Below are positions 8,822-30,560 of a stretch of 30,560 nt of DNA, one piece after another; position 1 is the stretch's first letter; each line of letters starts with the position of its first letter. The translations under genes were made by a program, and so were the position numbers. The notes under the pieces were generated by a model, which made no database searches, was not told the DNA's origin, and saw nothing but the letters and a program-made list of their open reading frames with translations. Origin of the DNA: a virus. The DNA is taken from positions 1 to 30,560 of IMG/VR virus record IMGVR_UViG_3300036944_000325. One strand, given 5' to 3'.

Positions 8822-8846
8822 ATTTGTATGTTTTTATTAGCACAAA

Positions 8847-8875
8847 AGAGGAGCGGTGTTTAAGCCGCTACCTCT
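8847..8875 (-). terminator. Hairpin terminator (likely partial) after major capsid gene
   Basis: On the leftward strand AGAGG-TA-GCGG pairs with CCGC-T-CCTCT around an 8-base loop, directly followed by TTTG. It lies 27 bases after the major capsid stop codon. The short U-run suggests partial termination, raising capsid mRNA over downstream genes. Confidence 0.6.
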
Positions 8876-8901
8876 GTTATGCAAGGGTTAGAATGGTCTG
8901 A

Positions 8902-9804
8902 TTATGCAGTATATTGGTAGAACGCGATCTCGTCACCGAAACCGTATTGTACACCTGCGAAGAAAGACGCTGCGAAACGAACGTTGTCAGAAAGGTCATA
9001 TTGGTACATATCCAAAACCGCTACGTTGTTCCATTGGTCTAACAAGTTAGTGCCGAACCACAAGTTAGACTTCTGATAGAAAGCCATTGTATCGTCGCTC
9101 ATTCCTGGGCACTCGATAACGTCATACTGACCTTGCCAGTTCATTACAACTGATTCTCCTTGATAAAGGTAGAAACCACCACCAAGACCAAGAATTGCGC
9201 TTCTGTATGCCTCAGCTACGTTTGAAGAAACTGCGATAACAGGCTTCTCAGTTGCGCGACGTACGCGTGTTGGAAGTGTTAATACTAAACGTCCCATTTC
9301 TTCGATAACGTTTGCAGAAGTAATTGCTTCTGGAGTAGCAACGTCAAGAACCGCAGCGTCAGCCAAGAACAAAGTTTCGAAACCTGCGTACTCACCTGCT
9401 GTTGCGTTAACACCCTGCCAAATCAAACGCTCGTTGTTTGCAGCAACTCCTGCCAATACGTTAGCAATTAAAGCGTCAGTCAATGAAGCGTGTAAGAAAC
9501 CGTCTTGCTCAGACTTAGCTTCCCAATCTGCTAAAAAGTCTTTCTTACAAAGTTGTCTGTGAACTTGGAATTTCTCTAAAGTCAAGATACGCTCTGTAAG
9601 TGTTACTGTTCCTGTTGGAGTGAAGTCACAAGTAGCATTTGCAAAAGTGATTGAATCAACTAATTTGCGAACAACTTGTTTGTACTCGATGTTTTCTTTG
9701 AAGGTAACCGCAGCCAAAGACTCGTTACTCAAGAATGCAGCGCGAATATATCCTGCTGCTTCACGACCTGCAAAGGTTGTGGTTAATGAAGTGGTAGTAG
9801 CCAT
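8902..9804 (-). CDS. Major capsid protein
   Basis: A 300-residue protein with Ala/Thr-rich N-terminus (MATTTSLTTTFAGREAAGYI) and features of an HK97-fold capsid protein: an early helix, a long central alpha/beta region (ANNERLIWQGVNATAGEY, then TRVRRATEKPVIAVSSNVAEAY) and a C-terminal beta-rich P-domain-like end (WFGTNLLDQWNNVAVLDMYQYD). The N-terminus is short, so assembly probably relies on the separate scaffold gene just upstream. Neighbours (protease, scaffold, tail tube, portal) agree. It has an A-rich leader (aaaaatggc) and a terminator-like hairpin after it, consistent with very high expression. Confidence 0.85.
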   Translation of the reverse strand: MATTTSLTTTFAGREAAGYIRAAFLSNESLAAVTFKENIEYKQVVRKLVDSITFANATCDFTPTGTVTLTERILTLEKFQVHRQLCKKDFLADWEAKSEQDGFLHASLTDALIANVLAGVAANNERLIWQGVNATAGEYAGFETLFLADAAVLDVATPEAITSANVIEEMGRLVLTLPTRVRRATEKPVIAVSSNVAEAYRSAILGLGGGFYLYQGESVVMNWQGQYDVIECPGMSDDTMAFYQKSNLWFGTNLLDQWNNVAVLDMYQYDLSDNVRFAASFFAGVQYGFGDEIAFYQYTA

Positions 9805-9823
9805 TTTTTATTGTTTGTTTTTT

Positions 9824-10378
9824 TTATTTTTTAAGATTGAATAAGAAACGCTCCTCTGCACTCATTTTGTGGTATGGCTTCGAAGGTGTTTGTTTTGCTT
9901 GCTTTACTTCTTTGATTGAAGACGCAGCAGGCTGTGCGCTTAACTTTGTCACTTCGCTTGAAAGGTTCTCGTTTGCTTTCTTCATGTCAGAAAGTTCGCT
10001 TTCAAGTTTTGCAACCAACGAAAGAAGTCCTTCAACCTCTTTGCTTAATGATTCGTCCGTAGACTGTTTTTCTTCTTCAACTTCAACCTCTGGTTCTTCT
10101 TCAACCATTGGTTTCAATTCAACAAGCAAACCGTCAGCAACAACTACAATAACGCCCTCGGCCGTTGTGTACTCTCCGTCCGCAACAGCAACCTCGTTGC
10201 CTTCTGCGTCTTTGGTGAATACACGAACACCTGTTGCCCATGTGTCGCTGTCTGAATAGATGCTTGTACCGTCCTCAAGTATCGCTTCAACCATTTGTTT
10301 CACCTCAACTACTTCTTCAGCAGATAGGCTAACATTGTGTTTTGCGAATAGAGCGTTTACTTTTTCTCGTAAATTCAT
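9824..10378 (-). CDS. Probable capsid scaffolding protein
   Basis: A 184-residue acidic protein from the ATG at 10378 (MNLREKVNALFAKHNVSLS). The N-terminal 90 residues include a beta segment (TWATGVRVFTKDAEGNEVAV). Then come a strongly acidic stretch (EEEPEVEVEEEKQ), a predicted coiled coil (about 115-150) and a basic C-terminus (PYHKMSAEERFLFNLKK), which is the usual capsid-binding end of scaffolds. It directly precedes the major capsid gene by 19 bases. An in-frame ATG at 10450 would add 24 residues (MKSSIVKQIYQFIYLVSKQ...). I prefer 10378, but the longer start has an A-rich leader too. Confidence 0.65.
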   Translation of the reverse strand: MNLREKVNALFAKHNVSLSAEEVVEVKQMVEAILEDGTSIYSDSDTWATGVRVFTKDAEGNEVAVADGEYTTAEGVIVVVADGLLVELKPMVEEEPEVEVEEEKQSTDESLSKEVEGLLSLVAKLESELSDMKKANENLSSEVTKLSAQPAASSIKEVKQAKQTPSKPYHKMSAEERFLFNLKK

Positions 10379-10392
10379 AATTCTGTTAATTG

Positions 10393-10429
10393 TTTGTTTA
10401 GATACTAGATATATAAATTGGTATATTTG
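10393..10429 (+). promoter_or_regulatory. Candidate promoter on the opposite strand to the capsid operon
   Basis: TATATTTG at 10422-10429 is a full match to TAnnTTTG on the + strand, with TTTG at 10393-10396. The 25-base spacing is longer than usual, so it may be weak. Transcription from it would end at the terminator at 10476-10505 and give an RNA of about 70 nt, antisense to the intergenic region before the scaffold gene. Confidence 0.3.
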
Positions 10430-10475
10430 TTTCACAATTGAACTTTTCATAGGTTGAATTTGATTTTTAGGTTTG

Positions 10476-10505
10476 AACGGGGGAGTAGTTACCCCCGTTT
10501 TTTTT
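10476..10505 (+). terminator. Strong intrinsic terminator facing right, hairpin on both strands
   Basis: AACGGGGG at 10476-10483 pairs perfectly with CCCCCGTT at 10492-10499 across an 8-base loop, and eight T follow from 10498. This is a textbook terminator, but for the + strand, while all genes here are leftward. On the leftward strand the same hairpin forms just after the stop of 10504-10680 but lacks a U-tract, so there it may act as a processing or stability element before the scaffold and capsid genes. Confidence 0.7.
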
Positions 10506-10680
10506 ATTCCAAACTTTCAAGAATGTCATTCAGTACCTTCACCTCTTGTTCGTTCAACCCGTACGTCTTAAAACCCATTTTGCCCTGTTCTTTTGTAATC
10601 TTTGTAAGAGCAAGAAGGAACAGGTTAGCGTCGTCGTTGTATAATTCCAACTTAAGAAACCCACCCGTTTCGATATTCAT
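10504..10680 (-). CDS. Small hypothetical protein between protease and scaffold
   Basis: A 58-residue protein (starts MNIETGGFLKLELYNDDANL) with a predicted helix-rich C-terminus ending LNEQEVKVLNDILESLE. Its ATG overlaps the protease stop codon by one base (TAATG), which supports translation. Its place in the head-assembly block suggests a head-related helper, but nothing in the sequence proves that. It ends right at the strong hairpin. Confidence 0.6.
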   Translation of the reverse strand: MNIETGGFLKLELYNDDANLFLLALTKITKEQGKMGFKTYGLNEQEVKVLNDILESLE

Positions 10681-11267
10681 TATTCGCCTTTCAAAAGTTC
10701 GTTTATTTCGTCAAGTATTGCAGCAAATTCGTCGTGCTTACTCAAATACATTTCTTTCTCTGCAATAAAGTTTCCTTCGATTGAAAAGCCAAGAACCTCT
10801 TTGTTTTGTATTTGTTGCTTCACTTCTTCGTTGTCTACTTTCATGCAACCGAACCACGTTCCCTCTGGAAGGTCGAAGCCGAAGTTCTTCGACTTGTCGT
10901 TCTCTCCTTCAATTATCCACGTCTCAACAAGCGACACTCCGTCAACCACTTTCGCGTGTTCAACCGTTGCGTTGTTTTGGTTTGCTTGTTTTAAGTAGTT
11001 GTAAGCAATTGCACGAATGGTGTCCTTTGAATACTTAACGTAGTATTCTTCATCCGTCTTGTCGTCGCGTCTGTAAATTAGTTGGTCAGGAATAAGCAAA
11101 GGACCATACAGAAGACCTCTAAAATCTTCTTTGAACTTCACGTTGTGTTGTTCGCTTAACGCTACAAAGTCCACACCGATTGCAGGTTGTTCTACGACAG
11201 AAATCGCGTACACTCCAAGCAATCCTGCGTCGTCGATTCCGTATTCAATAACTTTAATTTTTTTCAT
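10680..11267 (-). CDS. Prohead maturation protease, XkdF-like serine peptidase
   Basis: A 195-residue protein with the layout of the XkdF-type (S78-like) phage peptidases: GLLYGPLLIPDQLIYR (51-66), the likely catalytic His in TVEHAKVVDG (H104), EGTWFGCMKV (135-143) and the likely nucleophile Ser in VLGFSIEGNF (S162). It would cleave scaffold and capsid N-termini inside the prohead. It sits just upstream of the small gene, scaffold and major capsid genes in transcription order. The C-terminal 25 residues are helical (DEFAAILDEINELLKG) and might contact the capsid. The family is well supported; the second acidic residue of the catalytic set is not assigned. Confidence 0.82.
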   Translation of the reverse strand: MKKIKVIEYGIDDAGLLGVYAISVVEQPAIGVDFVALSEQHNVKFKEDFRGLLYGPLLIPDQLIYRRDDKTDEEYYVKYSKDTIRAIAYNYLKQANQNNATVEHAKVVDGVSLVETWIIEGENDKSKNFGFDLPEGTWFGCMKVDNEEVKQQIQNKEVLGFSIEGNFIAEKEMYLSKHDEFAAILDEINELLKGE

Positions 11268-11270
11268 TGT

Positions 11271-13304
11271 TTATCCTCCTAATCTTGATTGGTTTTGAAT
11301 TAATTGTTGTGCTTCTAAATTGCTTGACACTTGCGTTCCAACGACGTACGCTTGCAATGGTGGTTGTTGTTGGTTGGGTTGATTCTGCAAGAAGGCGAAG
11401 TTCGCAGGTGAAGGAGCGTTTGTTCCGCCACCACCACCTACTCCAGTTTCACCACCACCACCTGCGCCTGCAAAGCGACCTATTGCCGTTCCTGCTATTG
11501 TAGCAATGGAAGCCGCAGCCCGAAGTTTAGCACCAATGATTGCAGGTATTTTTATGGATGCTCCACCGTCTGGTGACAAAGACCAAACAGGGTTAGCGTT
11601 GTATGCGCTAATTTCTCGTTGAGTGTTCACAACGACTTGTGCAATGGCTAACGCTTTGTCAAGTGCAAAGGCAATGTCAGCCGCTTTCTTGTTTCTTGCG
11701 AATAGCGTTCCTAACAAGTTGACCGAAGCGGATGCAAGATTGAATTTCGCGTCTGTTAGTGCTTGTTCTGCCGCTAACTTGTCCGCATCAAATTGCTTTT
11801 GTCTTGCAAGTTCGTCCTCTTTTGCTTTTTGATCCGCTGCCTTTTTCTTTTCTTCGTCTGTAAGTTGTTGTTGAAGTGCTAAATCGTCGTATTTTTTGTT
11901 AATCTCAAGTTCTAAAAGACGATATTTTTCAACGATTAAAACCTTATCAGCCTCGTCACCTTCGTATGTTTGAAGTTCAAGTTCTTTTTTCTTTTCTAAA
12001 TCATAAAGTTCGTTAGCTTGCTCGCTTTGATTTGCTTTGATATAATCTTCACGCACTTTAAGTTTTTCGGCTTCAAGGTCTTTTTCAAGTTTTAATTCTT
12101 TAGCTGCTTGAACTGCGTTCGCTTCAAGTTGCTTTTCTCTTTCTTGTTCTTTCTTTTCTCTTTCGCTTTGCGCTGCTGTATTTGCAGCCTTTGTCTTTTC
12201 ACGAATTGCTTTTACTTCTGTTTGAACATTCGCTAAAACTGCCGACGTTGCCTCTCCTTCAAGAAACGCAATTCGTTGAATACTTTCTTCAAGGTCAACA
12301 GCCGCTTTTCCTACTCCTTCTGTTCCATTAAAAAAGTCGCTTATATTTTGGTTGGTTTCTTTGAATAAAGTTTGTTGGTTAAACTTTGCCGCTTCAACAG
12401 CAGCATTGAAATCTTCGGTGCTTAACTTTCCTCTCTTATTTGCAAGTTCTGTTTCTAAGGACAATTTCTTTGCATACTCAGCTTCAAGTAAAGACTTTGC
12501 CGCGTTTGCTTTGGCTTCCGATTTAATGCTTGCAATTAACTTTTCTTTTGCTGCATTTAACGCTTCCGTATCGTTGATGTCTCCGTTGATATTTGAAAAG
12601 TACGCTGGATACATTGTCTCCAAATCTTCCAACGCCTGTCTTCTTTCTTTCTCTGTTAAATTGTTGTCTTTAACTCTATCAGTCAAGACTTCAATTTGCG
12701 TTATCTTTTGCGCTCCTTTAACAAGTTCTTGTTCTGTTGCGTCATTTAATTCGCTTGTAACCTTTGCAAGGTTCTGCTGCTCTTTTGATGTTTGACTTGC
12801 CCACTTCCCAATCTCTTTATAGTTGTAAGCAATAGCAGCCAACGTTCCTGCAATCAAAAAGAATGGATTAGAAACAACCGACATTGCAAGATTTCCCAAA
12901 CCTTTTACCAAACCACCAACCTCATCTTTAATTGTCTTAAAATCAATACGACCAACAGCCACACCCATTCCGCTCAACGCTTGTCCTGCTCCTTTAAGGT
13001 CTAAGTCCATAAGACGTGAACCGAACAAACCAACGTTGTTCGAAAGACCTTCAAAAGCGTTACCTGCGTTGGCACTAATCTCAGCCGAAAGGTCTCCGAT
13101 ATTATCCTTTAACTCAGCGGCTCGAGCAGATGCTTTTTTGAAGGCATCACTCGTTTGATCCATTGTAAGCAACTGCTGATTCAGCGCACGCAACTCAGCC
13201 TTTGCTGAACTAAACCCTGCCGCCGTATTGTCTGCTGCTGCTGCCGTCTGATTAAGAACGGTAACCGCGTTCGTACTTACAACTAAATCTATTGTATTCG
13301 CCAT
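11271..13304 (-). CDS. Tail tape measure protein
   Basis: A 677-residue protein, the only one here with tape-measure character. It has an Ala-rich helical N-terminus (FSSAKAELRALNQQLLTMD), a hydrophobic segment (about 138-160, MSVVSNPFFLIAGTLAAIA), a very long charged coiled coil (about 380-530) and a second small-residue helical region before a Gly-rich stretch (AGAGGGGETGVGGGGG) and a Gln/Asn-rich end. It sets tail length during assembly and enters the cell envelope at ejection. By the usual rule of about 0.15 nm per residue the tail would be roughly 100 nm. It is followed by the head genes, so tail genes are transcribed before head genes, opposite to lambda. Confidence 0.8.
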   Translation of the reverse strand: MANTIDLVVSTNAVTVLNQTAAAADNTAAGFSSAKAELRALNQQLLTMDQTSDAFKKASARAAELKDNIGDLSAEISANAGNAFEGLSNNVGLFGSRLMDLDLKGAGQALSGMGVAVGRIDFKTIKDEVGGLVKGLGNLAMSVVSNPFFLIAGTLAAIAYNYKEIGKWASQTSKEQQNLAKVTSELNDATEQELVKGAQKITQIEVLTDRVKDNNLTEKERRQALEDLETMYPAYFSNINGDINDTEALNAAKEKLIASIKSEAKANAAKSLLEAEYAKKLSLETELANKRGKLSTEDFNAAVEAAKFNQQTLFKETNQNISDFFNGTEGVGKAAVDLEESIQRIAFLEGEATSAVLANVQTEVKAIREKTKAANTAAQSEREKKEQEREKQLEANAVQAAKELKLEKDLEAEKLKVREDYIKANQSEQANELYDLEKKKELELQTYEGDEADKVLIVEKYRLLELEINKKYDDLALQQQLTDEEKKKAADQKAKEDELARQKQFDADKLAAEQALTDAKFNLASASVNLLGTLFARNKKAADIAFALDKALAIAQVVVNTQREISAYNANPVWSLSPDGGASIKIPAIIGAKLRAAASIATIAGTAIGRFAGAGGGGETGVGGGGGTNAPSPANFAFLQNQPNQQQPPLQAYVVGTQVSSNLEAQQLIQNQSRLGG

Positions 13305-13522
13305 TATGAGAGTAGTTTATATAAAACAAATATCCAAAACGCTACGTTTACGGAAATACGCGTCACTTTCCACACATAGTGCTTCCAGATTTGTAGCTTA
13401 CGTTTGCCGTTAGCAATCTTACCAAAATTGCTTTCGCTCTTGACGTTCAACTTAATGAACTCCAAACAAGCAACCATTGCGCCTGCCTTATTTTGAAGAT
13501 GTCCCTTTGAAGTCTGTTCCAT
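13304..13522 (-). CDS. Small hypothetical protein with C-terminal membrane segment
   Basis: A 72-residue basic protein with one hydrophobic segment at its C-terminus (about 54-71, ISVNVAFWIFVLYKLL). Its first 35 bases overlap the end of the large minor tail gene and its stop overlaps the tape measure ATG. The protein is not recognised. A tail-associated or envelope role is possible by position. The tight packing on both sides argues that it is a real gene. Confidence 0.55.
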   Translation of the reverse strand: MEQTSKGHLQNKAGAMVACLEFIKLNVKSESNFGKIANGKRKLQIWKHYVWKVTRISVNVAFWIFVLYKLLS

Positions 13523-16136
13523 TTGATATGATTGTTATTGTGTCACCTGCTACGCTCAAGGTCACGCTTCCGCTACCTTCGACCGTCTCGCCTGTGTATG
13601 CTTGAATCGTTAGTGGATTAGCACCCGAAACAACACGTTGAATTATCAATTCACGACCTGCTGTTGTGGTTGCTGAAGGAAGGTAAATCGTTATGCCACC
13701 TGCCGTCGTATCTGCGAAAATCATTCTGTCGAAGTTCGTCACAACGTAGTCAGTCGTTATCGTTCTTACTGGTTGCGCTATCGAAGCACCAAAGCTAACA
13801 GGTGCGCCGAATCGTGTTGGTGCAAGTGAAGGAACTTGTTGTGTGATGAATGAGCGTGTGCCTCCGTTGGGTTGTGAGTAGCAGTCGTTCTTTGCGCTGT
13901 TCCAATTGTATCCAAAACGAAGACAACAATCTTGTGTTATTGTCGCAGGATCTCCGTTGGGTGTTTCCCAATTTAACGATTGGTCAAGGTTAGCAGATAC
14001 CGGTACAAGGTCGCAGTCGTTGTTGATGTCAAGAACGCGAATGAGTTTGACTTTGGTCATGTCTTGCTCACCAACAACGTAACCTTGAATTTCTAACACT
14101 CTCCACCAACTATCTATTATCCATATTTTGTCGCTGAATTGAAACGTGAAGATATCGTTCAACGTTAGTGCAAACATTCCCTCTAAGATTCGCGCTTGTC
14201 CATCGAATAGTTCGCGATAGTAGTTTCTCCACCAACGGTTGTATAAGTTGTTGTATGGGCTGGCAATGATTGTGTGCGGTGGTATTTCGGGAGCGAAGTT
14301 CAAGTCTTTGTCGCTTACCGTTGCGTTCATCGTTGAATAGTTATTCAGACACTTGACCGCCGTAACAATAACGCTATCTGAAACCTCATCGTACATATTG
14401 ACAAAGAAGTCTGCGAAGTAGTAAAGGATGCGTGGTTTTGGTTGAACAAATTGTCCTTCTGCGTTAGTGAAAACAGGAACAACAAGGTCTGTGCTTTGAA
14501 CAGGTGCGGAAGGTGTTGACGCAAAAGCTAACTCAACCTTTTCTTCGCCTGTTGCGAACTCATTGATTACTTCGAAATCTGATTCAGTCACCTCATAACG
14601 TCCGTAGATGCGCCCATTGTCTTTGTATACTGAATTGAAATAGTCGCCGTCTTCGGTGTATGTGAAAGAGAACTTCGCCTTTTGTAGGTCAGTCGTTGGT
14701 GAGTACATAATGTCTTTCGACAAGTCCAACTTCTGCGACCAATCAAGAGTGTTTCCACTTGCGATGTACTCAACCATTGGCTCAATCTTCAGCGTGTTTG
14801 GAAGCGTCTTGTCTGCAACAAAAACAAGATTAAACATTTTTTGAATCGAAGTGATAAAATCAATTTGCTTCATATCTGGAGCGTTAAACTCCATGAGAAT
14901 TGTGTCGCCTGTTAAAGCAGTTCCAACGCTTACCAATTCAACACCCGTTCCCGTGTAATCGTTTGCTCCATTACCTTCAAAATCTATTTCAAAATTTGAA
15001 GCAAGGACTCCAGAAATACAAGAAAATCTTATTTTTACAGTATCACCCTCAGTTAAAGAAACCGTAATGTTTGTATTTAAATTAAATGTATTGGAATAAA
15101 CTGAATCTGAAAAAAATTGAAATTCTGATTGTTCTGCAAATACGTTATTTACGTTTATAAAAATGCTTCCGTATAAAGATGAAACATAATTAACACCAGA
15201 AGAAGTTGCAGTTCCGTTTGCCCAAATTTTAAAAGTAAATTGACCACTAAAAGGTGCGGTAAAAATACCACTTGACCAATTGTTTCCCGCATCTTCATAT
15301 TCAGTTAATGCCGTGTATAAATCATAAACATGATTTGAAGGTAAAAAAGGAACGTTTAAAACATCTGATGCAAACGCTAAGGTGCTTGCAAGGTCATTTA
15401 ATCCCAACGAACTATTCAAATACTGACCATTCACAAAAGGAACGTAAACGTCTTCCAAACAACTACTCAAAAAATCGCTTTCATATTGCAAACCTGCGTC
15501 GTTCATTATTTGATTGAACAAGTATTCAGCCTTAACCGCAGGTGTTAAATGACCAACGTATAAAGGTTTGTAATTGTCGAACGTAGTGTCAGAAGGTGAA
15601 TAAACAGGTTGTCCTTCCGTATTGTAACTTGTCAAGTTCCACTTGTCGCACAACGTTAATATCGTGTGCGCGTTAGGTGGTGTTTCAACATTTGCATGAA
15701 GTAAATCGTAATCCAAGTCACCATCAACAATGCTCTCAATATCTTTGAGTTTTTTCTCATTTAATAAACGTGCTAAGTTTGGAACTTCACCAAAGAACAC
15801 AATCTCAAACTCGAACAACTTACCGCTCTGCCAATACAACTTCTTCACCTGTATGTGACCACTTGCAATGGGTATCGTGTTAACCGTCAACACAGCTTCA
15901 ACCTTCTTTCTAAAGTCAAACCACCCGTCGAAATTCACGTTGAAGATAGCTCCGAAAAAATCGGTGTTTGTCTTTGATGCAGGCACTCTAAATTCCTGTG
16001 AGTAATTGCCCACAGAGGCGAAGTCGGTGATGTCCGTGAACTTGTAGTTCAAGTGCATCTTTTCGTTTTCGTATAGGTCGAGAATCGCGCTGTTTCCGTC
16101 GTTGTCAGTAAGCGTAAGTATTACTTGATTCATCAT
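13488..16136 (-). CDS. Large minor tail / baseplate protein with apparent inserted beta domain
   Basis: An 882-residue protein. The N-terminal 130 residues (FASVGNYSQEFRVPASKTN, then VKKLYWQSGKLFEFEIVFFG) resemble the tail-tip hub-like proteins of Bacteroidota siphoviruses. Residues about 228-392 form a different module, with SSGIFTAPFSGQFTFKIWA near 290 followed by strand-rich text, looking like a jelly-roll adhesion domain. After that the hub-like protein resumes (MKQIDFITSIQKMFNLVFVA). The last 90 residues (MIFADTTAGGITIYLPSA) form a beta-rich tail domain. The inserted module is noticeably more AT-rich than its flanks. It overlaps the preceding gene by ATGA. Confidence 0.72.
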   Translation of the reverse strand: MMNQVILTLTDNDGNSAILDLYENEKMHLNYKFTDITDFASVGNYSQEFRVPASKTNTDFFGAIFNVNFDGWFDFRKKVEAVLTVNTIPIASGHIQVKKLYWQSGKLFEFEIVFFGEVPNLARLLNEKKLKDIESIVDGDLDYDLLHANVETPPNAHTILTLCDKWNLTSYNTEGQPVYSPSDTTFDNYKPLYVGHLTPAVKAEYLFNQIMNDAGLQYESDFLSSCLEDVYVPFVNGQYLNSSLGLNDLASTLAFASDVLNVPFLPSNHVYDLYTALTEYEDAGNNWSSGIFTAPFSGQFTFKIWANGTATSSGVNYVSSLYGSIFINVNNVFAEQSEFQFFSDSVYSNTFNLNTNITVSLTEGDTVKIRFSCISGVLASNFEIDFEGNGANDYTGTGVELVSVGTALTGDTILMEFNAPDMKQIDFITSIQKMFNLVFVADKTLPNTLKIEPMVEYIASGNTLDWSQKLDLSKDIMYSPTTDLQKAKFSFTYTEDGDYFNSVYKDNGRIYGRYEVTESDFEVINEFATGEEKVELAFASTPSAPVQSTDLVVPVFTNAEGQFVQPKPRILYYFADFFVNMYDEVSDSVIVTAVKCLNNYSTMNATVSDKDLNFAPEIPPHTIIASPYNNLYNRWWRNYYRELFDGQARILEGMFALTLNDIFTFQFSDKIWIIDSWWRVLEIQGYVVGEQDMTKVKLIRVLDINNDCDLVPVSANLDQSLNWETPNGDPATITQDCCLRFGYNWNSAKNDCYSQPNGGTRSFITQQVPSLAPTRFGAPVSFGASIAQPVRTITTDYVVTNFDRMIFADTTAGGITIYLPSATTTAGRELIIQRVVSGANPLTIQAYTGETVEGSGSVTLSVAGDTITIISNGTDFKGTSSK

Positions 16137-17368
16137 AGTCCAACAGGTTGTGAGTATTTAAGATTCAAAGTAACGTTGTAAAGTTTCGAATATCTTTCGT
16201 CCTTAATAACGAAGTTTTGAGTATCCACAAGAACAGGTGTTTGTGTTCCGTCGTCATTGATGATATAAACGTCATTTGAACGACAAAGCGTTTGTAACAA
16301 TTCGAACTCACCAACGCTAACCCAATCGCTATTTATTTGCAGTCCTTTCGTCGTTGTCACATATCGGTCAGTCGTGCCTCTGTCGTAGGTATTGAACCCA
16401 AAAGTTGAAGCGTTGTAAGTACCAACTACTTTTTGGTATTGCTTACGATCGTAACTGTACGATAACTCCGACTTCTTTGTAAAATTGAAGTAATCAACAC
16501 CGCCGCAAGTATTTGTCCAACCCAAACGAACATTGTCAAAGCGACAATCGTCAGCGACAAGATAAAAACAATACACACGCGAAGCAGGTGTGTAAATGGG
16601 AAAAGCAATATCTTCACCCGCTTGGACTGTGTAATATTTAACATTGCTTAGGTCGATTCCGTCGTTTAGTAAGTTAGATGCAAACGCTCCGTATGCTGTC
16701 ACTCCGTTTAAATCGGTCTGCAAAAGAAAATTATTTGTCTCAACTATTGCGTTGTCGTTGTCGTACGTTGTAACGTACAAATTCGTTGCGATGCTGTCAA
16801 CGAGTAATCCGTTATTGTTGACTGAATACAATTGACCGTGATCGTTTAAGCGTGTTGGAATATACACCCAGTCAGATGAAAGACCGCGTGAAGGTGCTTC
16901 AATCCATTTGTGTGTATCAACGTTTCTTTCGCTCAACAAGTATTTGTTTGCATTACTTAATGCGTAGCGTGTGTTTGGGTTTGGTTTGTATCCGTCAGCC
17001 ACTTGATATTCAGCGAGGAAAGCATACACATCGTCAATGTCAGCCATTCCCGAACCGCTTACTGTGAACACTCCGTCAACGAGCCATCCTTCTTTTATCG
17101 TGCAAGAGATGAATGCAACACTTGTGAACTCATCGTTAATGTTATCGCGTATTGCTTCAATACTATGGTACAACTGCTCTCTGAATATCGGTGCGAGGTC
17201 TAACATTCCCTTTGCGTTTGCGTTAGGTTGAACGTTCACTTGAAAAGAACCGAAGTCGAACACAAAGCGAAAACCTGCGTTAGCTACGTTCGTTGAAGAT
17301 GCAACGAGCATAAGTCGCTGACCGACTGGTGTGTATTGGTATGGTTGATCGTTGATTGTAATTGCCAT
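16133..17368 (-). CDS. Minor tail protein
   Basis: A 411-residue beta-rich protein starting MAITINDQPYQYTPVGQRLM, with N-terminal strand-rich segments (FRFVFDFGSFQVNVQPNAN), a C-D-C-type motif near YLVADDCRFDNVRLGWTNTC and a C-terminal NLKYSQPVGL. It is paired with the following large gene through an ATGA overlap, so the two are probably made in equal amounts and form the tail tip or baseplate together. I recall similar gene pairs in other Bacteroidota phages, but no enzyme motif is visible. Confidence 0.65.
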   Translation of the reverse strand: MAITINDQPYQYTPVGQRLMLVASSTNVANAGFRFVFDFGSFQVNVQPNANAKGMLDLAPIFREQLYHSIEAIRDNINDEFTSVAFISCTIKEGWLVDGVFTVSGSGMADIDDVYAFLAEYQVADGYKPNPNTRYALSNANKYLLSERNVDTHKWIEAPSRGLSSDWVYIPTRLNDHGQLYSVNNNGLLVDSIATNLYVTTYDNDNAIVETNNFLLQTDLNGVTAYGAFASNLLNDGIDLSNVKYYTVQAGEDIAFPIYTPASRVYCFYLVADDCRFDNVRLGWTNTCGGVDYFNFTKKSELSYSYDRKQYQKVVGTYNASTFGFNTYDRGTTDRYVTTTKGLQINSDWVSVGEFELLQTLCRSNDVYIINDDGTQTPVLVDTQNFVIKDERYSKLYNVTLNLKYSQPVGL

Positions 17369-17371
17369 ATT

Positions 17372-17974
17372 TTAAATGTCTTTTAGTTGATTTTCTAACG
17401 TTGCCGTGAAGTCCTTTTGATATGCTGCGACCACTTGCGATTCGTACTCATCCCAAATGTTTTCCATCGCGTAGTCGAAAGCGTGCCACCCTTTTATTCC
17501 ATCACGACGAACTTTGAACATAATGAGCTTCGCCACCTGTTGTTTCAGTTCTTCAGTTGACTTCTTGAACTTACCGCTTGACTTATCGCGTAGTCGAATG
17601 CCTTTTATCGTCATCCAGTCGTAAATCGCTTTTTGCATTGGTGACATTTGACCTTTTGCGGGTTTGCTTCCGCTTCCGCGTTTGAAAGAATATGGCGCAC
17701 CTTGCGACTTCTGCGTTCCATTGACACCGTTCTCTCTGAACAAAAAGTATTGCCCTGCCTTTCCCTTCGCATAGATTGAAATGTTGATTGAAGAACCTTT
17801 GATTTGCAACCTATACTTCAAAGACTTTTCGAGCGTACCACTTGCTATCGCGTTGGTGTAGTTGCGTCCCACTTTTCGCTTCATACGATAGTCGGACTGC
17901 ATCAATTCTACGAAGCGTTTAGCCATCTCATTGACAACAGCGAAGAAGTTTGGTGCGCTCTGTTCGTTAGCCAT
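17372..17974 (-). CDS. HK97 gp10-like tail completion / neck protein candidate
   Basis: A 200-residue basic protein. An N-terminal helix (FFAVVNEMAKRFVELMQ) is followed by IASGTLEKSLKYRLQIKG, typical of gp10-type proteins that act at the head-tail joint. The centre has FLFRENGVNGTQKSQGAPYSF, and the C-terminus is helical (GIKGWHAFDYAMENIWDEYE). It is separated from the minor tail gene by three bases and overlaps the small gene upstream by 8 bases. Placement with tail genes supports a tail-completion role. The fold assignment is from pattern, not proof. Confidence 0.55.
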   Translation of the reverse strand: MANEQSAPNFFAVVNEMAKRFVELMQSDYRMKRKVGRNYTNAIASGTLEKSLKYRLQIKGSSINISIYAKGKAGQYFLFRENGVNGTQKSQGAPYSFKRGSGSKPAKGQMSPMQKAIYDWMTIKGIRLRDKSSGKFKKSTEELKQQVAKLIMFKVRRDGIKGWHAFDYAMENIWDEYESQVVAAYQKDFTATLENQLKDI

Positions 17975-18095
17975 TGTCCTTTTCTGAATCTTCTTTTATC
18001 TTGTTGAAAAACTGAATCAATGGTAAGCCAAACTTGCAAGGCATCTCTTGAATGAAAGCGTCTAATTGCTTTAAGTGTTCTTCGGTAAGGTTCAT
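17967..18095 (-). CDS. Small hypothetical protein
   Basis: A 42-residue protein, MNLTEEHLKQLDAFIQEMPC followed by KFGLPLIQFFNKI and an acidic tail. It overlaps the gp10-like gene by 8 bases and starts one base after the stop of the small structural gene before it. Two predicted helices; function unknown. The close coupling on both sides supports that it is translated. Confidence 0.55.
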   Translation of the reverse strand: MNLTEEHLKQLDAFIQEMPCKFGLPLIQFFNKIKEDSEKDNG

Positions 18096-18096
18096 A

Positions 18097-18351
18097 TTAT
18101 TCTTTTATAATTGTTACTCCTATTGCCTTTGCTACGCACTCAGCAACCCACGAATTGTCTAACCCCCACGCTGCAAATTCATCTTCAGTTAGCGTGTAAT
18201 TACCATTGCTTAGAACAGTTCCTTCGTCAGTCTTTAATTCATAATATGTAGTGCAAGTTGTTGCGCTTGTTTCGAAGTTGAGAATGAGTACACTCATTTC
18301 TGTTGCCGTTCCTGCATTAAGCGGGAAGACTACGGGTTGTATTTTAGCCAT
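18097..18351 (-). CDS. Small virion-associated protein downstream of tail fibre
   Basis: An 84-residue protein starting MAKIQPVVFPLNAGTATEMS at the ATG at 18351; the longer frame to 18396 would overlap the tail fibre gene and has no good leader. It is mostly beta, with TTCTTYYELKTDEGTVLSNG, followed by a helical part ending AKAIGVTIIKE. It lies 11 bases after the tail fibre gene and may be a fibre accessory or a trimming/assembly partner. Function is not established. Confidence 0.55.
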   Translation of the reverse strand: MAKIQPVVFPLNAGTATEMSVLILNFETSATTCTTYYELKTDEGTVLSNGNYTLTEDEFAAWGLDNSWVAECVAKAIGVTIIKE

Positions 18352-18362
18352 TGTATAAATTA

Positions 18363-20471
18363 TTAAACTATTTTTAATGTTCCTGCATCGTTCCACAAAG
18401 CACCCGTTGGAAGGCCTGCGCTTGAAGTTGGAAGGTTACCGAATACTATTCGACCTCTCGTTGTTTCAATTGCTCTAAAATCAGTTGCTGAAGTAAGTGT
18501 TGGTGCAATGTATAATCCACGAGTTATTCCATTAGCAGTTCCAGTTTGATTGATTATTGGTGTTGCTCTGAATGATGAAAAATCAGCATTTCCACTTGTT
18601 TGCGTCCAAGTGATTGCGTCTGAAAAACTTGTTCTTGAACCACTTGTTACCAATACAGAACCACCACCACTTGCAAAAATAAATGTTTGACCATAAATAA
18701 ATGGCGAACCATTATTATTAAAAAATCCACCATAAAAACCACTACCAGTATTTTGAGTAATTATAACATTTCCACTTGCATTTATTGTGGTTGTTGTTAA
18801 TCCACTTACTCTGGTTGTTCCATTGACATCCAACTTGAAACCAGCATCTGTTGTTCCACCAATAATAATATTTCCAGTTGTTGGTGCAACTCTAAAATAA
18901 TATGTAGAAAATGCAGTATTTGTAATACTAAAATGTCTATTACTACCAACCACATCAACTCCAAAAAATGCGTTTTGAAAAGATGTAATAGTATTATTGC
19001 TAAATTGAAAACCAGTTCCACCACCAGTTCCTATTTGTAATGCGTTTGCAAATCGAACATCACCACCTTGCACTTCCAATCTAAATGAAGGTGAAGCCGT
19101 TCCAATTCCTAATCTTGAATTAGTATTGTCCCAAAATAGCGAACCCGATTGCTGTAACACATTGCCTGTTCCTTCAAAAAGAATTCTTCCAACAGTTCCG
19201 CTTGTTATTGGTGTAGTGCCTACCGTTAACCCTGTCGCTATCGTGAATGTTCTATCTGCTGAAAGGTCTTGCGTTGTGCCGTTAATTGTCAGCGTTCGCG
19301 TTGAAGGAACTTTTGCATTCCACGTTGCAGCAGATGCTATGTAAGCGTCAGCCAAGTCAGTAGTCAAATGTAGTTCTGACAATTGAGTAACGCCACCTGT
19401 TACGCTCATTGCGTTACCGCTGCCGCTTGTCTTGTTAACCGTTAACGCTTCACCTGCGCCACCCTTAGTGATTGAAGCGGCAACACCGCTACCACTTGAA
19501 TGGTTGATGACTAAATCTTTCGCGCTTAACGTGTGCGTTCCTAAATCAACGTTTTGCGTCGCTCCTGTGTATGGAACGTAACCCGTTAATGAAGGTAAAT
19601 CTTGCGCTGTAATAAATGGGTTAACACCGTCCGCCCCGTCGTTGGTTAGGTCGCTTGTTAGCGTTGGTATTGTCGGAAGGTTTGAAAGGTCATTGTAATC
19701 ATTCGAGAAACCAACCGCGCTGATGCTCGTGATGTCAGCCTTCAAAAGTATTTCTTCTTCGAGTGCGTCAATGGCTGCTTCGATGTCTATAATCGTTTGA
19801 CAATCTCCAATCGTTTCACACGTCAACCCGATATTATCCGTCGTTAAATACCAACCGCGCACCCCTTCGTCATTCGTTCCGTAGTAGTAATTAGGCGAAG
19901 GTTCTGCTTCGTCGTTTACAAGCGAAACGTTCCCGTTCTCGTCGCGATTGATTGAATCGATGAAGGTCAAAATTGATCCTGTGCCACCTGTCGAAGATTC
20001 GAACATATCGTTCCATTCAGCAGGAATGCTGCAAGCGTCCCAATAATAAGGAACAAGTAAATCTAAACTAATCGTCCAACCTGTTAGCGTATGTTGAAAC
20101 TCTTCGAGGAATGGTTCTAACGAAACGTTGTTGACAGTAATCAAGTCACCAAACAAAACTCGGTGGTTTGTTATCTCAGCAACCAAATCTTCTGCGATTC
20201 GTTGAAGGTCTGACAACACCTCGCGTTGGTACTCTGGTTTGTCTTCTTTGTCTCGTGGCATATCCGCAAGGACAATCTGAAAAGAGAACGTCTTCATACC
20301 TTTCGCGTAAGTAACGTTCGAAGGCACAACGTGCATGAATGGATATTCGCCAAACTTTTCAAGGTCTGAAACCTCAATCTGTCCGTGAGAGAATCGTTTA
20401 AGAATGAAATGTCCAGAGGCGAATGCGTGGAATCTATCGATGAGAGCGTTGTAGCTTTGTACGTTCGACAT
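18363..20471 (-). CDS. Tail fibre / receptor-binding protein with N-terminal tail-attachment domain
   Basis: A 702-residue protein. Residues about 1-160 (MSNVQSYNALIDRFHAFASG, FSHGQIEVSDLEKF, YAKGMKTFSFQIVLADMPRD, YYWDACSIPAEW) look like a separate virion attachment or tail-terminator type domain. Residues about 230-250 form a short coiled coil (IDIEAAIDALEEEILLKADI). After that come repeated fibre modules: YVPYTGATQNVDLGTHTLSA, STRTLTINGTTQDLSADRTF and RLGIGTASPSFRLEVQGG, ending LPTGALWNDAGTLKIV. No peptidase S74 chaperone is seen at the end. The DNA for residues about 447-664 is markedly more AT-rich than the rest. The start is the ATG at 20471; 20483 is TTG. It overlaps the chaperone frameshift extension. 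Confidence 0.75.
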   Translation of the reverse strand: MSNVQSYNALIDRFHAFASGHFILKRFSHGQIEVSDLEKFGEYPFMHVVPSNVTYAKGMKTFSFQIVLADMPRDKEDKPEYQREVLSDLQRIAEDLVAEITNHRVLFGDLITVNNVSLEPFLEEFQHTLTGWTISLDLLVPYYWDACSIPAEWNDMFESSTGGTGSILTFIDSINRDENGNVSLVNDEAEPSPNYYYGTNDEGVRGWYLTTDNIGLTCETIGDCQTIIDIEAAIDALEEEILLKADITSISAVGFSNDYNDLSNLPTIPTLTSDLTNDGADGVNPFITAQDLPSLTGYVPYTGATQNVDLGTHTLSAKDLVINHSSGSGVAASITKGGAGEALTVNKTSGSGNAMSVTGGVTQLSELHLTTDLADAYIASAATWNAKVPSTRTLTINGTTQDLSADRTFTIATGLTVGTTPITSGTVGRILFEGTGNVLQQSGSLFWDNTNSRLGIGTASPSFRLEVQGGDVRFANALQIGTGGGTGFQFSNNTITSFQNAFFGVDVVGSNRHFSITNTAFSTYYFRVAPTTGNIIIGGTTDAGFKLDVNGTTRVSGLTTTTINASGNVIITQNTGSGFYGGFFNNNGSPFIYGQTFIFASGGGSVLVTSGSRTSFSDAITWTQTSGNADFSSFRATPIINQTGTANGITRGLYIAPTLTSATDFRAIETTRGRIVFGNLPTSSAGLPTGALWNDAGTLKIV

Positions 20472-21194
20472 AGTTATAGTCAATTAGGTAAGTCATATAT
20501 GTAAATATCTCCCAAGCGCTTTTTTCCGTAATTGCGTCCAACTTTGTTATGTCGCGCCCGCACGCTTCCATAAAAAGGTGATACCAACCGTAGCGTCCTA
20601 AGACTTGGTTTAGGTTGTCTCGGTCTTCAATTGCTCCGTCAACTCCTGCGTCAACTTCTTCACCTCGTTCTCCAAATAATCGAGCGAAGTGTTGCTTAGT
20701 TCGCTGAGCAAAGTCGAAAAAAAAAGCATCGCACCGTTGAATTGTTCAAGCGTCATCTGTTCAACATAGCCTTCAACAAGCTCTCTATTTTGCTTGCTGT
20801 GTGGAATGATTGTGTACTTTGAACCAACGCGTTTGTCGATAGGTCTGTAAAGCGTCCCCATGATTTTGACCATGTTGGTTGACACGTCCGAAGCCCACGT
20901 TGAAATATCCGCATACTCACCCATTGAAATTGAGTAAAGGTCTGGAATAAAACCAAAGTCTTTGTCTTTGATCGTAATTGTTTCAAAGAACTTCGCGCTC
21001 TCATTCAACAACGTTCCTTCAAATGCTGCGAGTAGTGTCGGCAAGTGTTGGAAAGGAATCTGTTCCGCCTGTTCCTTCAGTAGGTTACTAATGCTAACCA
21101 ACTTGTCTATGTCACTCTTCGCGTTGTGATAGTCAACGTATTGCTTGACGCTAATCGAAGAATAGTCAGCTGGTATGCTTACTTTGATGCTCAT
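20434..21194 (-). CDS. Tail assembly chaperone, predicted -1 frameshift product
   Basis: Ribosomes that slip back one base on the T9 run (20717-20725) would leave the 0 frame after 159 codons and read 94 more codons to the TAG at 20434-20436, giving a 253-residue protein. The -1 frame is open from the slip site to that stop and reads like protein in its last part (NLNQVLGRYGWYHLFMEACG, then DITKLDAITEKSAWEIFTY). The slippery heptamer T TTT TTT is in the correct phase. This matches the gpG/gpGT arrangement of long-tailed phages, where the shifted form recruits tail tube protein to the tape measure. The extension overlaps the tail fibre start by 38 bases. A separate start at the internal ATG of FMEACG is possible but would lose the best-looking part. 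Confidence 0.65.
20610..21194 (-). CDS. Tail assembly chaperone, unshifted form
   Basis: The 194-residue 0-frame product starts MSIKVSIPADYSSISVKQYV. Predicted mostly helical: KSDIDKLVSISNLLKEQAEQ, then YSISMGEYADISTWASDVST, then MTLEQFNGAMLFFSTLLSEL, with a coiled-coil C-terminus (LENEVKKLTQELTEQLK). Size and position before the tail genes fit a tail assembly chaperone that is not part of the finished virion. It shares its first 159 residues with the frameshift product. The gene starts 42 bases after the small CxxC protein gene. The sequence has no motif that proves the role by itself; the frameshift site is the main argument. Confidence 0.6.
   Translation of the reverse strand: MSIKVSIPADYSSISVKQYVDYHNAKSDIDKLVSISNLLKEQAEQIPFQHLPTLLAAFEGTLLNESAKFFETITIKDKDFGFIPDLYSISMGEYADISTWASDVSTNMVKIMGTLYRPIDKRVGSKYTIIPHSKQNRELVEGYVEQMTLEQFNGAMLFFSTLLSELSNTSLDYLENEVKKLTQELTEQLKTETT
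20717..20726 (-). other. Slippery sequence for -1 ribosomal frameshift
   Basis: On the leftward strand the 0-frame codons read CTT TTT TTT TCG; the run of nine T includes T TTT TTT in the phase needed for a tandem -1 slip. The -1 frame is open for 95 codons (including stop) after the slip, while the 0 frame ends at 20610. Confidence 0.65.
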
Positions 21195-21392: not shown

Positions 21393-21420
21393 TCCTTATT
21401 ATAAGTTTAGTTCTTCGTTC

Positions 21421-21495
21421 TTTGTCGCAAAAATCTACTATACTTGCGACAAAATCACATTATAAAGTGTCACAAATTTTCAAATAATTGTGACA
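21421..21495. promoter_or_regulatory. Two tandem dyad operators (half-site TGTCRCAA)
   Basis: First dyad: TTTGTCGCAA at 21421-21430 and TTGCGACAAA at 21444-21453, a perfect 10-bp inverted repeat with a 13-base spacer. Second dyad: TGTCACAA at 21468-21475 and TTGTGACA at 21488-21495, a perfect 8-bp inverted repeat with a 12-base spacer. The four half-sites follow TGTCRCAA and are 20-24 bases apart, about two helical turns. They fill the 114-bp gap before the virion genes. A TATAAT lies between them on the leftward strand (21459-21464), but no clear TAnnTTTG is present. They could be operators for a dimeric regulator or, less likely, RNA hairpins. Confidence 0.6.
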
Positions 21496-21506
21496 AACAT
21501 TTGCCA

Positions 21507-23548: not shown

Positions 23549-24016
23549 CTATTTGTTCAAATCGACATCGACGTTATTCATCGATTCTAAAAACGTATTG
23601 ATGTCTTTCTTGACGCAAGGCGGACACGTTGAACGCTCGTTGAACGCTCCTGTGGCTTTGTCCTTGAACGAATAGAACTTCAACATATCATTTTGTTCTA
23701 AACGCCCCTGGGCCTTCATATCAAGAAGAAAACGTTTGAACTCAATTTGTTCGTCCATAGACAAGACACCGTCCCATTTAGACGCAGGACATGAAGCGAA
23801 GGCGAGCTTTGCTTTGATAGGCATTACGCACCCACAAAGTTGAATTGATTTGCGACGGAATAGGACTTCGTATTTTGTTTCAAATACATTTCCTTCTGCG
23901 TCCACTTCGCCACCAACGATTAATGGACCGCAAGACTGCGTTGAAGATTCGAAGAATTTACAGGTACGACAAATTTCAAGTCGTCTTTTGTACTCATTAC
24001 TTTTGGCGAATAACAT
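23549..24016 (-). CDS. Cys-rich, probably zinc-binding protein
   Basis: A 155-residue protein with cysteines arranged as metal sites: CRTC (C16, C19), C29, CGC (C61, C63), C76 and CPPC (C131, C134). The N-terminal half looks like one or two zinc ribbons with a beta insert (SCGPLIVGGEVDAEGNVFET), and the C-terminal half is helical. It overlaps the sigma-like gene by 20 bases. Proteins of this type recur in Bacteroidota phages beside DNA-handling genes, to my recollection, but no function is known to me. Confidence 0.65.
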   Translation of the reverse strand: MLFAKSNEYKRRLEICRTCKFFESSTQSCGPLIVGGEVDAEGNVFETKYEVLFRRKSIQLCGCVMPIKAKLAFASCPASKWDGVLSMDEQIEFKRFLLDMKAQGRLEQNDMLKFYSFKDKATGAFNERSTCPPCVKKDINTFLESMNNVDVDLNK

Positions 24017-24497
24017 TTGCTCTTATTTTAGTTTTGATTGAATCGATAGTGCGGTAAAGAAAGACCGTTGGTATTCCTGTTTGTTTAGAAAATTCACGAT
24101 AAGTAAAACCTTCAAAGATATATTCTTGAAAGATTAGTCTTTCGAACTCAGTTAAGCGACTTATAAGAATGTCCAGTTGCTCGTTGGTCATTCGTGCGCC
24201 TAACCAAGTCTTGTCCACTTCGTGTGCGTATTCTTTAAAGTCACGACGGTTTCTGTTCCAAGCAATTGTTTGGCGGTAAAATGGCGACGTTGGACTGTTG
24301 ACGGCTAAGTACATAACACGGATTAAGTAAAACTCAAAGTCGCCTGTGTCGATTAGGTTTTCAATGTGCTTACTTCCAAACATAGAAAGCAAAGAATCGT
24401 GAAGCAAGTCTTCGTAGTAATCCTCACCTCGCGAAATGTTCTTCGCAAGTTCTTTGAACTTTTTATAGTTGCCTTCTATGTATTGGTCAAGTGTCAC
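23997..24497 (-). CDS. Sigma-factor-like transcription regulator
   Basis: A 166-residue protein with the small sigma-70 layout. A region 2-like part (about 8-75) includes DYYEDLLHDSLLSMF and FEFYLIRVMYLAVNS. A C-terminal region 4-like part has LTEFERLIFQEYIFEGFTYR with a helix-turn-helix at about 132-152 (YREFSKQTGIPTVFLYRTI). It could redirect host RNA polymerase to phage promoters or act only as a DNA-binding regulator. The start is GTG overlapping the previous TGA (GTGA); no nearby ATG preserves region 2. It is early in the leftward operon, before the virion genes. Confidence 0.6.
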   Translation of the reverse strand: MTLDQYIEGNYKKFKELAKNISRGEDYYEDLLHDSLLSMFGSKHIENLIDTGDFEFYLIRVMYLAVNSPTSPFYRQTIAWNRNRRDFKEYAHEVDKTWLGARMTNEQLDILISRLTEFERLIFQEYIFEGFTYREFSKQTGIPTVFLYRTIDSIKTKIRANVIRQK

Positions 24498-24898
24498 GTG
24501 TTGAAGTATTCGTCGATTACTTTGATTGCCTCTTCATTACCTTTACAAATATACGAAGCGTAGCCCCTGTTTCGCAATTGCTCCTGCCACCGCTTCTGCT
24601 CTGGTGATGCAGTACCTCCCTTTTCTTTCTTCATCTCTATTGCTAAGCCGTGAAACTCTCCGCGTGGTTCGTAAATGAATAGATCGGGAAACCCTTTAAC
24701 GTAGCCAGTACGCTTCATCTTGATTGCTTGCAAGTAACTAGTTCTCATTCCACCTGCGGAAGCGCAATACAAAGCGTCAGGATATGCTAAACGAAGGTAA
24801 TTGATTACTATTTCTTGTTGGTTCGCTTCGCTTTCGGGTGTTGTTTTACGCTTCACAACACTTTTTTTGTATTTTTTCTTAAAAGTTTTCACGTTCAT
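24494..24898 (-). CDS. VRR-NUC domain nuclease
   Basis: A 134-residue protein from the ATG at 24898 (MNVKTFKKKYKKSVVKRK); the longer frame begins with TTG. The VRR-NUC/PD-(D/E)XK core is clear: ANQQEIVINYLRLAYPDA, GYVKGFPDLFIYEP with D72, LAIEMKKEKG with E88 and K90, and PEQKRWQEQLRNRGYASYIC with Q101. Stand-alone VRR-NUC proteins of this size are found in many phages as structure-specific nucleases, possibly resolving branched DNA before packaging. It is the first gene of the leftward operon, divergent from the early genes. Confidence 0.88.
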   Translation of the reverse strand: MNVKTFKKKYKKSVVKRKTTPESEANQQEIVINYLRLAYPDALYCASAGGMRTSYLQAIKMKRTGYVKGFPDLFIYEPRGEFHGLAIEMKKEKGGTASPEQKRWQEQLRNRGYASYICKGNEEAIKVIDEYFNT

Positions 24899-24935
24899 TT
24901 TCAATCAGTTAGATATTATTTTCAATTTATTTTCA
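24886..24935. repeat. Phased TTTTCA direct repeats in the divergent control region
   Basis: TTTTCA occurs at 24886-24891, 24898-24903, 24919-24924 and 24930-24935, with start spacings of 12, 21 and 11 bases, close to whole helical turns. The last two copies are TTATTTTCA. They lie just before the early promoter and partly within the first codons of the VRR-NUC gene. In AT-rich DNA this could be chance. Confidence 0.35.
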
Positions 24936-27115: not shown

Positions 27116-27355
27116 ATGAATAAAGCAATCTACAAAACCCCATTCGGTCGCCTTGTCAAGGTAAACTTCAAGACGATGCAGAATTTTAAAAATGTTCTTC
27201 GCATAAGCGACCCAACGGCACGACTTTACGTTGCGCATCCAGAGCGAATGAGAATCAAAGACTTCAATAACATTTGCCTTCACACAGGACTTTCACGCGA
27301 AGAAGTATTCAGCACCTTTACACCAACCAAATTAATAAACGAAGAAAATGACTAA
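27116..27355 (+). CDS. Hypothetical protein upstream of initiator
   Basis: A 79-residue basic protein with LVKVNFKTMQNFKNVLRISD and a possible helix-turn-helix-like end (DFNNICLHTGLSREEVFSTF). It overlaps the DnaA-like gene by 8 bases. A DNA-binding or initiation-control role would fit both the helices and the place, but there is no clear family match. Confidence 0.6.
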   Translation: MNKAIYKTPFGRLVKVNFKTMQNFKNVLRISDPTARLYVAHPERMRIKDFNNICLHTGLSREEVFSTFTPTKLINEEND

Positions 27356-27878
27356 CGAACAGATAAGACAGGAACTAATAGACATGATACCGTTTCGATA
27401 CATGGAACGCTTCGAAACACTTTGGTTGATGCTGACACCACGCTATGAGCGTTTAACGAGCGAACAAATAAAGATGCAGCAAGAACTGGAGAACGAACGC
27501 GAAATGTTTTGGTCAGCATTGGAAGACATAACGTGCAGCGTATTGGGAATACCTTCGCAAGCGTTATACACACCAACGAGAAAACGCGAGATAGTAACCG
27601 CAAGACAAGTGATATTCTTTTTAATACGTCCTTGCTACCTTCAAAGCTATGAATCAATTGGGAAGCACTACGGCAAAGACCACGCTACCGTTATGCACGG
27701 AGTGAAGCAGGTAAGTTGGCAGATTGAAGTGGATAGAAACTACGCTGCCAACGTGGAAAGAATCTGTTATTTGCTCAATGATATGGGTTATGCTAAACCT
27801 ACGAAGTTTTATACTAAATTTGTCGAACACTTAGAACACCAGAAAGAAATCAAACTTAAAAAACAATTAAAGAAATGA
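27348..27878 (+). CDS. Replication initiator-like protein with DnaA domain IV
   Basis: A 176-residue protein. Residues about 57-130 match the C-terminal DNA-binding domain of DnaA: VLGIPSQALYTPTRKREIVT, ARQVIFFLIRPCYLQSYESI and the signature-like GKDHATVMHGVKQV (DHATVMHG at 111-118). The AAA+ part is absent; the first 55 residues are helical and charged, and the last 25 residues are Lys-rich. It probably binds DnaA-box-like sites to start phage replication or to divert host initiation. It is coupled to the next gene by ATGA. No clear DnaA-box cluster was found by eye. Confidence 0.8.
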   Translation: MTNEQIRQELIDMIPFRYMERFETLWLMLTPRYERLTSEQIKMQQELENEREMFWSALEDITCSVLGIPSQALYTPTRKREIVTARQVIFFLIRPCYLQSYESIGKHYGKDHATVMHGVKQVSWQIEVDRNYAANVERICYLLNDMGYAKPTKFYTKFVEHLEHQKEIKLKKQLKK

Positions 27879-30287: not shown

Positions 30288-30560
30288 ACCCGAATACCTT
30301 CCGCGTCAAGTCGAAGCGTTGAACTACTTGAATACCGATTCGCAAGTTGAACAGTTACTTTACGGTGGCGCGGCAGGGGGTGGGAAGACTAAGTTCGGTT
30401 GTATGTGGCAGATACAGCGCCGTTTGAAGTACGCAGGAACGCGTTCGCTTATTGGACGTAGCAAATTAGACACTTTGAAAAAGACTACGTTAAACACGTT
30501 CTTTGAAACGGCGCGTGAGTTTGGATTGGTTGCTGACAAACACTACACCTATAACGGACA
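30274..30560 (+). CDS. terL: Terminase large subunit, N-terminal part (continues at window start)
   Basis: The first 95 codons of TerL: MNPYKPEYLPRQVEALNYLN, then the Walker A motif YGGAAGGGKTKFG (GGAAGGGKT at residues 31-39) that binds ATP, and the following LIGRSKLDTLKKTTLNTFF segment typical of terminase ATPase domains. It runs off the window and rejoins the left end in frame at the shared KHYTYNG. The ATG at 30274 lies inside the preceding small gene and is the only start that keeps the full N-terminus. Confidence 0.9.
   Translation, partial: MNPYKPEYLPRQVEALNYLNTDSQVEQLLYGGAAGGGKTKFGCMWQIQRRLKYAGTRSLIGRSKLDTLKKTTLNTFFETAREFGLVADKHYTYNG
30538..30560 (+). repeat. Right copy of terminal overlap
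   Basis: It matches 9-31 at 22 of 23 bases, in the same terL frame. The codons just upstream (gct gac) differ from those at the left end (gcg aat), so identity ends abruptly; this looks like strain variation across the contig ends. Confidence 0.85.

Follow-up and report, generated by a model that had tools for sequence, protein, structure and literature searches.

The window analysed here, a stretch of 30,560 nt of viral DNA, carries two inverted repeats, dyads 1 and 2, in an intergenic region of 114 bp (21393-21506, minus strand). On sequence grounds, dyad 1 is assigned with high confidence to the operators of the DUF6088/AbiEi antitoxin class, which belong to the type IV toxin–antitoxin (abiE) operons of Bacteroidota, and dyad 2 is probably an auxiliary operator and a weaker member of the same class. 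The reading that we favour, and consider rather probable, is that the dyads are AbiEi/DUF6088 operators which are read in trans and likely repress the leftward promoter until replication of the phage outnumbers the repressor. The phage appears in this way to be connected to a regulator that its own genome does not encode.

Dyad 1, TTTGTCGCAA-N13-TTGCGACAAA (21421-21453, minus strand), is a candidate AbiEi/DUF6088-type operator of the CG class, the class being given by the xy pair of the half-site TGTxyCAA; its perfect 10 bp arms (21421-21430 and 21444-21453) flank a spacer of 13 nt. Dyad 2, TGTCACAA-N12-TTGTGACA (21468-21495, minus strand), has CA-class half-sites in perfect 8 bp arms (21468-21475 and 21488-21495) with a non-canonical spacing of 12 nt. 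These two perfect repeats, and the half-site TGTCRCAA common to both, had been recognized in a preliminary description of the window and are confirmed here; its statement that they occupy the only sizeable gap of the leftward operon is wrong, as the gap of 114 bp ranks fifth, after gaps of 250, 126, 122 and 122 bp. For leftward transcription, dyad 2 lies upstream of dyad 1 at a centre-to-centre distance of 44.5 bp, and 29 bp separate dyad 1 from the first codon of the leftward gene that comes next, a 51-residue phage ORF (21237-21392, minus strand) that is kept in relatives and heads the leftward cluster. The genes that the dyads would control are, we infer, those of the leftward virion/lysis cluster (2696-21194, minus strand), with a portal gene (5896-7851), a tape-measure-like gene (11271-13304) and tail genes, and the earlier suggestion that the dyads act at a late promoter is plausible. 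No terminator-like U-run was found 3' of the dyads. A single repeat with 10 bp arms and a spacer of 10-15 nt is unremarkable alone, with a mean of 0.7 in shuffles of the window; what is noteworthy instead is the presence of two repeats with a common half-site and their recurrence in relatives.

In a pattern scan of GTDB genomes, nearly all sites were found in Bacteroidota, where they occur phylum-wide. Most of them lie 15-20 bp before a gene for a protein of about 200 residues, DUF6088 (PF19570; AbiEi in PADLOC), which is followed by an overlapping gene for the AbiEii nucleotidyltransferase toxin in the arrangement of an abiE type IV toxin–antitoxin operon; some of the chromosomal copies are found apart from DUF6088. 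As a control for the bias of this site-led search, DUF6088 genes were taken, without regard to the site, from 199 Flavobacteriaceae genomes. A perfect TGTxyCAA-N13-TTGy'x'ACA is present just upstream of 12 of the 13 full-length genes, with xy being CA, CG, CC or AA and always of identical class in both arms, and exact sites of the CR or AA class, of which the 199 genomes contain six, all fall at DUF6088 promoters. The distance from the dyad to the start codon at chromosomal DUF6088 genes is mostly 8-20 bp. With the spacing held at exactly N13, 12 of 29 DUF6088 genes from 395 Bacteroidia genomes have a perfect dyad and 23 have one within two mismatches, against an expectation of 0.1 of 29 from shuffles with two mismatches allowed. 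The dyad also accompanies DUF6088 into Gammaproteobacteria (L223 and L238).

Comparison of the window with these host operators shows perfect half-sites in both dyads, CG in dyad 1 and CA in dyad 2, within the set CA, CG, CC and AA. The spacer is 13 nt in dyad 1 and 12 nt in dyad 2, and N12 was not seen among well-formed host operators. An asymmetric core like ATATTTACTAAAT is found in dyad 1, the core of which, AAATCTACTATAC (21431-21443), scores 5.9 bits, the 95th and 99th percentiles of the background being 0.4 and 4.2 bits. Paired dyads resembling those of the window are also present in the abiE promoters L237 and L248. No DUF6088/AbiEi gene lies directly downstream, dyad 1 preceding the 51-residue phage ORF, and for this reason we speak of an AbiEi-type operator and not of a part of an abiE locus. 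The earlier proposal that half-sites about two helical turns apart form the operators of a dimeric DNA-binding regulator is thus supported, with the motif being, as judged from its letters, of the AbiEi/DUF6088 operator type. Outside this set, TGTCAGAA-N14-TTCTGACA, in this or a closely similar form, precedes DUF6088 genes on alphaproteobacterial plasmids (L611-L613) by 12-37 bp, a hint that the operator code may reach beyond Bacteroidota.

The class of the operator is matched by residues of the protein. An alignment of 90 DUF6088 proteins whose genes have a perfect dyad carries most information on xy in columns 36, 40, 33 and 37, and residues 36 and 37 predict the xy class without exception (90 of 90 proteins, a count uncorrected for kinship among them). 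The CG class has K33/[SNAQGL]36/K37/[EQ]40 (47 of 47, with K33 replaced by R in two), the CA class has R36/[KQ]37 (31 of 31), the AA class has R36/L37/[HF]40 (8 of 8) and the CC class has K36/K37/L40 (4 of 4); the code is also obeyed by the two divergent proteobacterial members, L223 and L238 (about 31% identity for L238). In an AlphaFold model (pLDDT 92), the third helix of the winged-helix domain spans residues 33-46 and has the code residues at positions i, i+3, i+4 and i+7. The best PDB matches of the model are AbiEi from S. agalactiae and Rv2827c from M. tuberculosis (Foldseek top hits 6y8q and 1zel), and DUF6088 has the fold of an AbiEi antitoxin, with an N-terminal wHTH, an AbiEi C-terminal domain and an AbiEii partner encoded downstream, and is annotated as DUF6088/AbiEi_4 in Pfam and as AbiEi in PADLOC. 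Early 'exceptions', in which CG-class dyads lay upstream of R36 proteins (L203, L206, L212 and L228), were resolved, as a class-matched dyad lies nearer to the start codon in each; the extra CG-class dyads are about 140-150 bp farther upstream than these proximal dyads and perhaps reflect cross-regulation between abiE systems.

An alignment of the gap in related phages had been proposed in the preliminary description, and the dyads are indeed conserved in relatives at the same place. A scan of the upstream regions of 80 related viral contigs, gathered via the protein encoded at 20610-21194, located dyad 1 in 36 sequences, 30 in the orientation of the window (the window included) and six reversed, and dyad 2 in 15, 13 of which also have a forward dyad 1. 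About half of the relatives lack the dyad, so that the site is dispensable, and in these a different small gene directly abuts instead. With at most one mismatch, TGTxyCAA-N13-(complement) is present in 12 of the 21 family genomes that are near-complete or large, versus 0.012 per Markov-shuffled genome, and the Markov shuffles gave no perfect copies. In three relatives (L030, L034 and L046) both arms are switched from GTCGCAA/TTGCGAC to GTCACAA/TTGTGAC (CG to CA) and seven of the 13 spacer bases are changed too; the dyad has thus been kept though its letters differ. In the remaining forward-type copies the spacer is conserved nearly as much as the arms, and the family alone is therefore no proof that the arms are what counts. 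An apparent TGTAACAA-N13 site in the relative G034 was dismissed, as it sits within coding sequence.

The operator also recurs in unrelated phages, and many phage families in IMG/VR carry it, in all four classes. Among the matches listed, a spacer of 13 nt forms a peak for the CR (69 of 120), AA (53 of 120) and CC (7 of 16) patterns, whereas the letter-order control GA has no peak (spacer 13 in 1 of 33 matches), and the cores of the phage sites are similar to host cores. In another phage family, an orthologous site with near-identical flanks belongs to class CA or to class AA, depending on the member. The keeping of matched arms through such class changes argues that phages have been selected for being bound and not for escape. 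Hybrid phage dyads (AA/CA, CA/CC and CG/CT) with AbiEi-like cores, which look as if intermediate between classes, are common in a degenerate scan (L615-L698); strict symmetry is thus not required in phages and the matched-arm constraint is not absolute. DUF6088 (PF19570) was found in none of 50 operator-bearing phage records, many of which are fragments, so that the virus itself may have what its record lacks, and in none of 40 family records (the window and 39 relatives); the positive control for this search, site-bearing bacterial genomes, gave 33 positives of 49. As the phage is without a DUF6088 protein, the site would be read in trans by AbiEi from elsewhere. One viral contig, L101, has at 1220-1251 and in the adjacent gene (reverse strand) an abiE-type dyad (N14), a ribosome-binding site and about the first 31 abiEi codons, which continue in frame into an unrelated tail that resembles a nuclease; this looks like the direct capture of an abiE promoter by a phage.

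In abiE promoters and in many of the phage copies, the right arm shares bases with the -7 box of Bacteroidota, TAnnTTTG. No exact TAnnTTTG overlaps the right arm in the window, in agreement with the preliminary description, and only versions with one mismatch each are present, GATTTTTG leftward and TATACTTG rightward; TAAATTTG stands at the position of the -7 box in L030, L034 and L046. The core of dyad 1 has the host orientation on the plus strand, away from the virion genes, and core orientation within the window family is mixed. Phage TAnnTTTG boxes over the right arm point toward the adjacent gene start in 19 cases and away in six (p = 0.007), and some phage genes start (ATG) at the edge of the operator. 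The favoured reading is weakest in that the -7 box is imperfect, the core is oriented as in hosts on the plus strand and dyad 2 has a spacing of N12.

Under operator reading in trans, the two TGTxyCAA half-sites, separated by two helical turns, would each be bound by one winged-helix domain of a DUF6088 protein, with residues 33, 36, 37 and 40 of the recognition helix reading the xy pair. AbiEi supplied by a resident abiE toxin–antitoxin system, on the chromosome, a plasmid or another mobile element, would bind during infection to dyad 1, and perhaps to dyad 2, beside the leader of the leftward operon, and would most likely hold the leftward promoter and its virion genes down until replicating phage genomes exceed the repressor in number, presumably to the benefit of the phage. 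The same phage copies would also draw AbiEi off the abiE promoter. We advance only tentatively, as possible but somewhat doubtful, the wider idea that the promoters of many phage families are wired to the abiE antitoxin and follow its specificity classes through paired arm changes, and that abiE is sensed or counter-regulated through operator copy number, by DNA sites alone.

Late regulators are usually encoded by phages themselves, and a phage-encoded regulator that uses the half-site of AbiEi by chance would suit a site that stands at a conserved phage promoter position and has orthologues retained across much divergence. The candidates would be the sigma-factor-like protein (23997-24497, minus strand; PHROG 1740) and the ribbon-helix-helix protein (2548-2724), both named as binders in the preliminary description, the DnaA_C-like protein (27348-27878) or an unrecognized protein. 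The first two are unsupported, since no phage protein tracks the motif, and we consider a regulator of this kind unlikely: no window ORF is present in all 12 operator-bearing relatives yet absent from the nine operator-less ones, no protein family is common to all operator-bearing phages examined, a wHTH profile gave nothing convincing in these phages except the 31-codon fusion of L101, and the use of host AbiEi xy classes by the phage sites would not be explained. The dyads may instead be decoys that titrate host AbiEi as phage genomes multiply, upsetting abiE control to the advantage of the phage or of the host. The retention of operators without a repressor gene, the mixed core orientation in the window family and one family with two dyads that differ in class and would titrate two types of AbiEi are consistent with this; however, a pure decoy needs no promoter, and the promoter geometry of the phage sites (TAnnTTTG box overlap, directed 19 versus 6 toward the adjacent gene start, and an ATG sometimes at the edge of the operator) counts against it, making it improbable.

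A general host regulator with a regulon that covers both abiE and phage promoters would account for the phylum-wide distribution of the motif in Bacteroidota and for the chromosomal copies away from DUF6088, but is very improbable, given that the 199 genomes have their exact CR- and AA-class sites at DUF6088 promoters only, that the dyad moves with DUF6088 into Gammaproteobacteria (L223 and L238) and that the xy class is predicted by residues of the DUF6088 helix. The palindromic arms and asymmetric core also recall a site for site-specific recombination of the dif/lox type, and the 31 bp palindrome, with its asymmetric centre, is found in both orientations among relatives. This idea was rejected on the genomic context of the sites and has next to no probability, as the chromosomal copies track a transcription-factor gene and a promoter, not an integrase, dyads are paired within one promoter, and N13 spacing with TAnnTTTG overlap is promoter geometry.

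Autorepression has been described for AbiEi from S. agalactiae (on IR1 and IR2) and Rv2827c from M. tuberculosis, which bind as monomers to inverted repeats in their own promoters (PMC7319586). DUF6088 is like both in fold, both being the best structure matches of its model, whereas their operators are 23 bp repeats separated by 3 or 13 bp, in promoters of Gram-positive bacteria or mycobacteria. The operators described here consist of short TGTxyCAA half-sites with 13 bp between them and are found in Bacteroidota and in phages without the antitoxin. The phages CTXphi and GIL01 are under the host-encoded repressor LexA and are similar in that a phage promoter has the operator of a repressor encoded elsewhere; here, however, the repressor would be the antitoxin of an anti-phage abortive infection system, encoded on mobile loci with several specificities. 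Neither a DUF6088 operator nor the occurrence of AbiE operators in phages is described in the literature searched, a search for the half-site string gave primer noise only, and the recognition code, like the operators in phages, appears to be unreported. To our knowledge, the means by which AbiE senses phage is an open question. If phage genomes carry an AbiEi operator, infection itself shifts the ratio of AbiEi to operator, which provides a directly testable candidate for a trigger or counter-measure. The recognition code predicts the abiE variant that each phage would engage and gives DUF6088, of 'unknown function' in Pfam, a predicted DNA-binding specificity.

The nearest isolated relative of the window phage is Nonlabens phage P12024S (Inhavirus), a distant one with 29% identity between the portals; a DNA-level search for isolated relatives found none. 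P12024S has an annotated pair of VRR-NUC and sigma-70 region 2 genes that resembles the window pair at 24494-24904 and 23997-24497, and it has no such dyad even with two mismatches allowed. The window protein encoded at 27348-27878 has a DnaA C-terminal (HTH) domain (Pfam PF08299) and is a possible replication initiator. Dyads adjoining or inside tRNA-like sequence in viral contigs (L089, L111, L131, L133 and L150) were left out of account as unrelated. The control pattern TTGTGACAA-N14-TTGTCACAA (L509-L541) is itself enriched in viral contigs, with 22 of 33 matches at spacer 14, and is a separate motif; TTGTCACAA-gttgagggggtaat-TTGTGACAA (N14) and close variants recur with similar flanks in numerous viral contigs with a GC content near 46% (L083, L097, L104, L109, L140, L169, L188 and L200). 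The two ends of the window (1-31 and 30529-30560) have in common a 22 bp near-repeat, AACACTACACCTAYAACGGACA, and the record may thus represent a genome that is either circular and nearly closed or terminally redundant.
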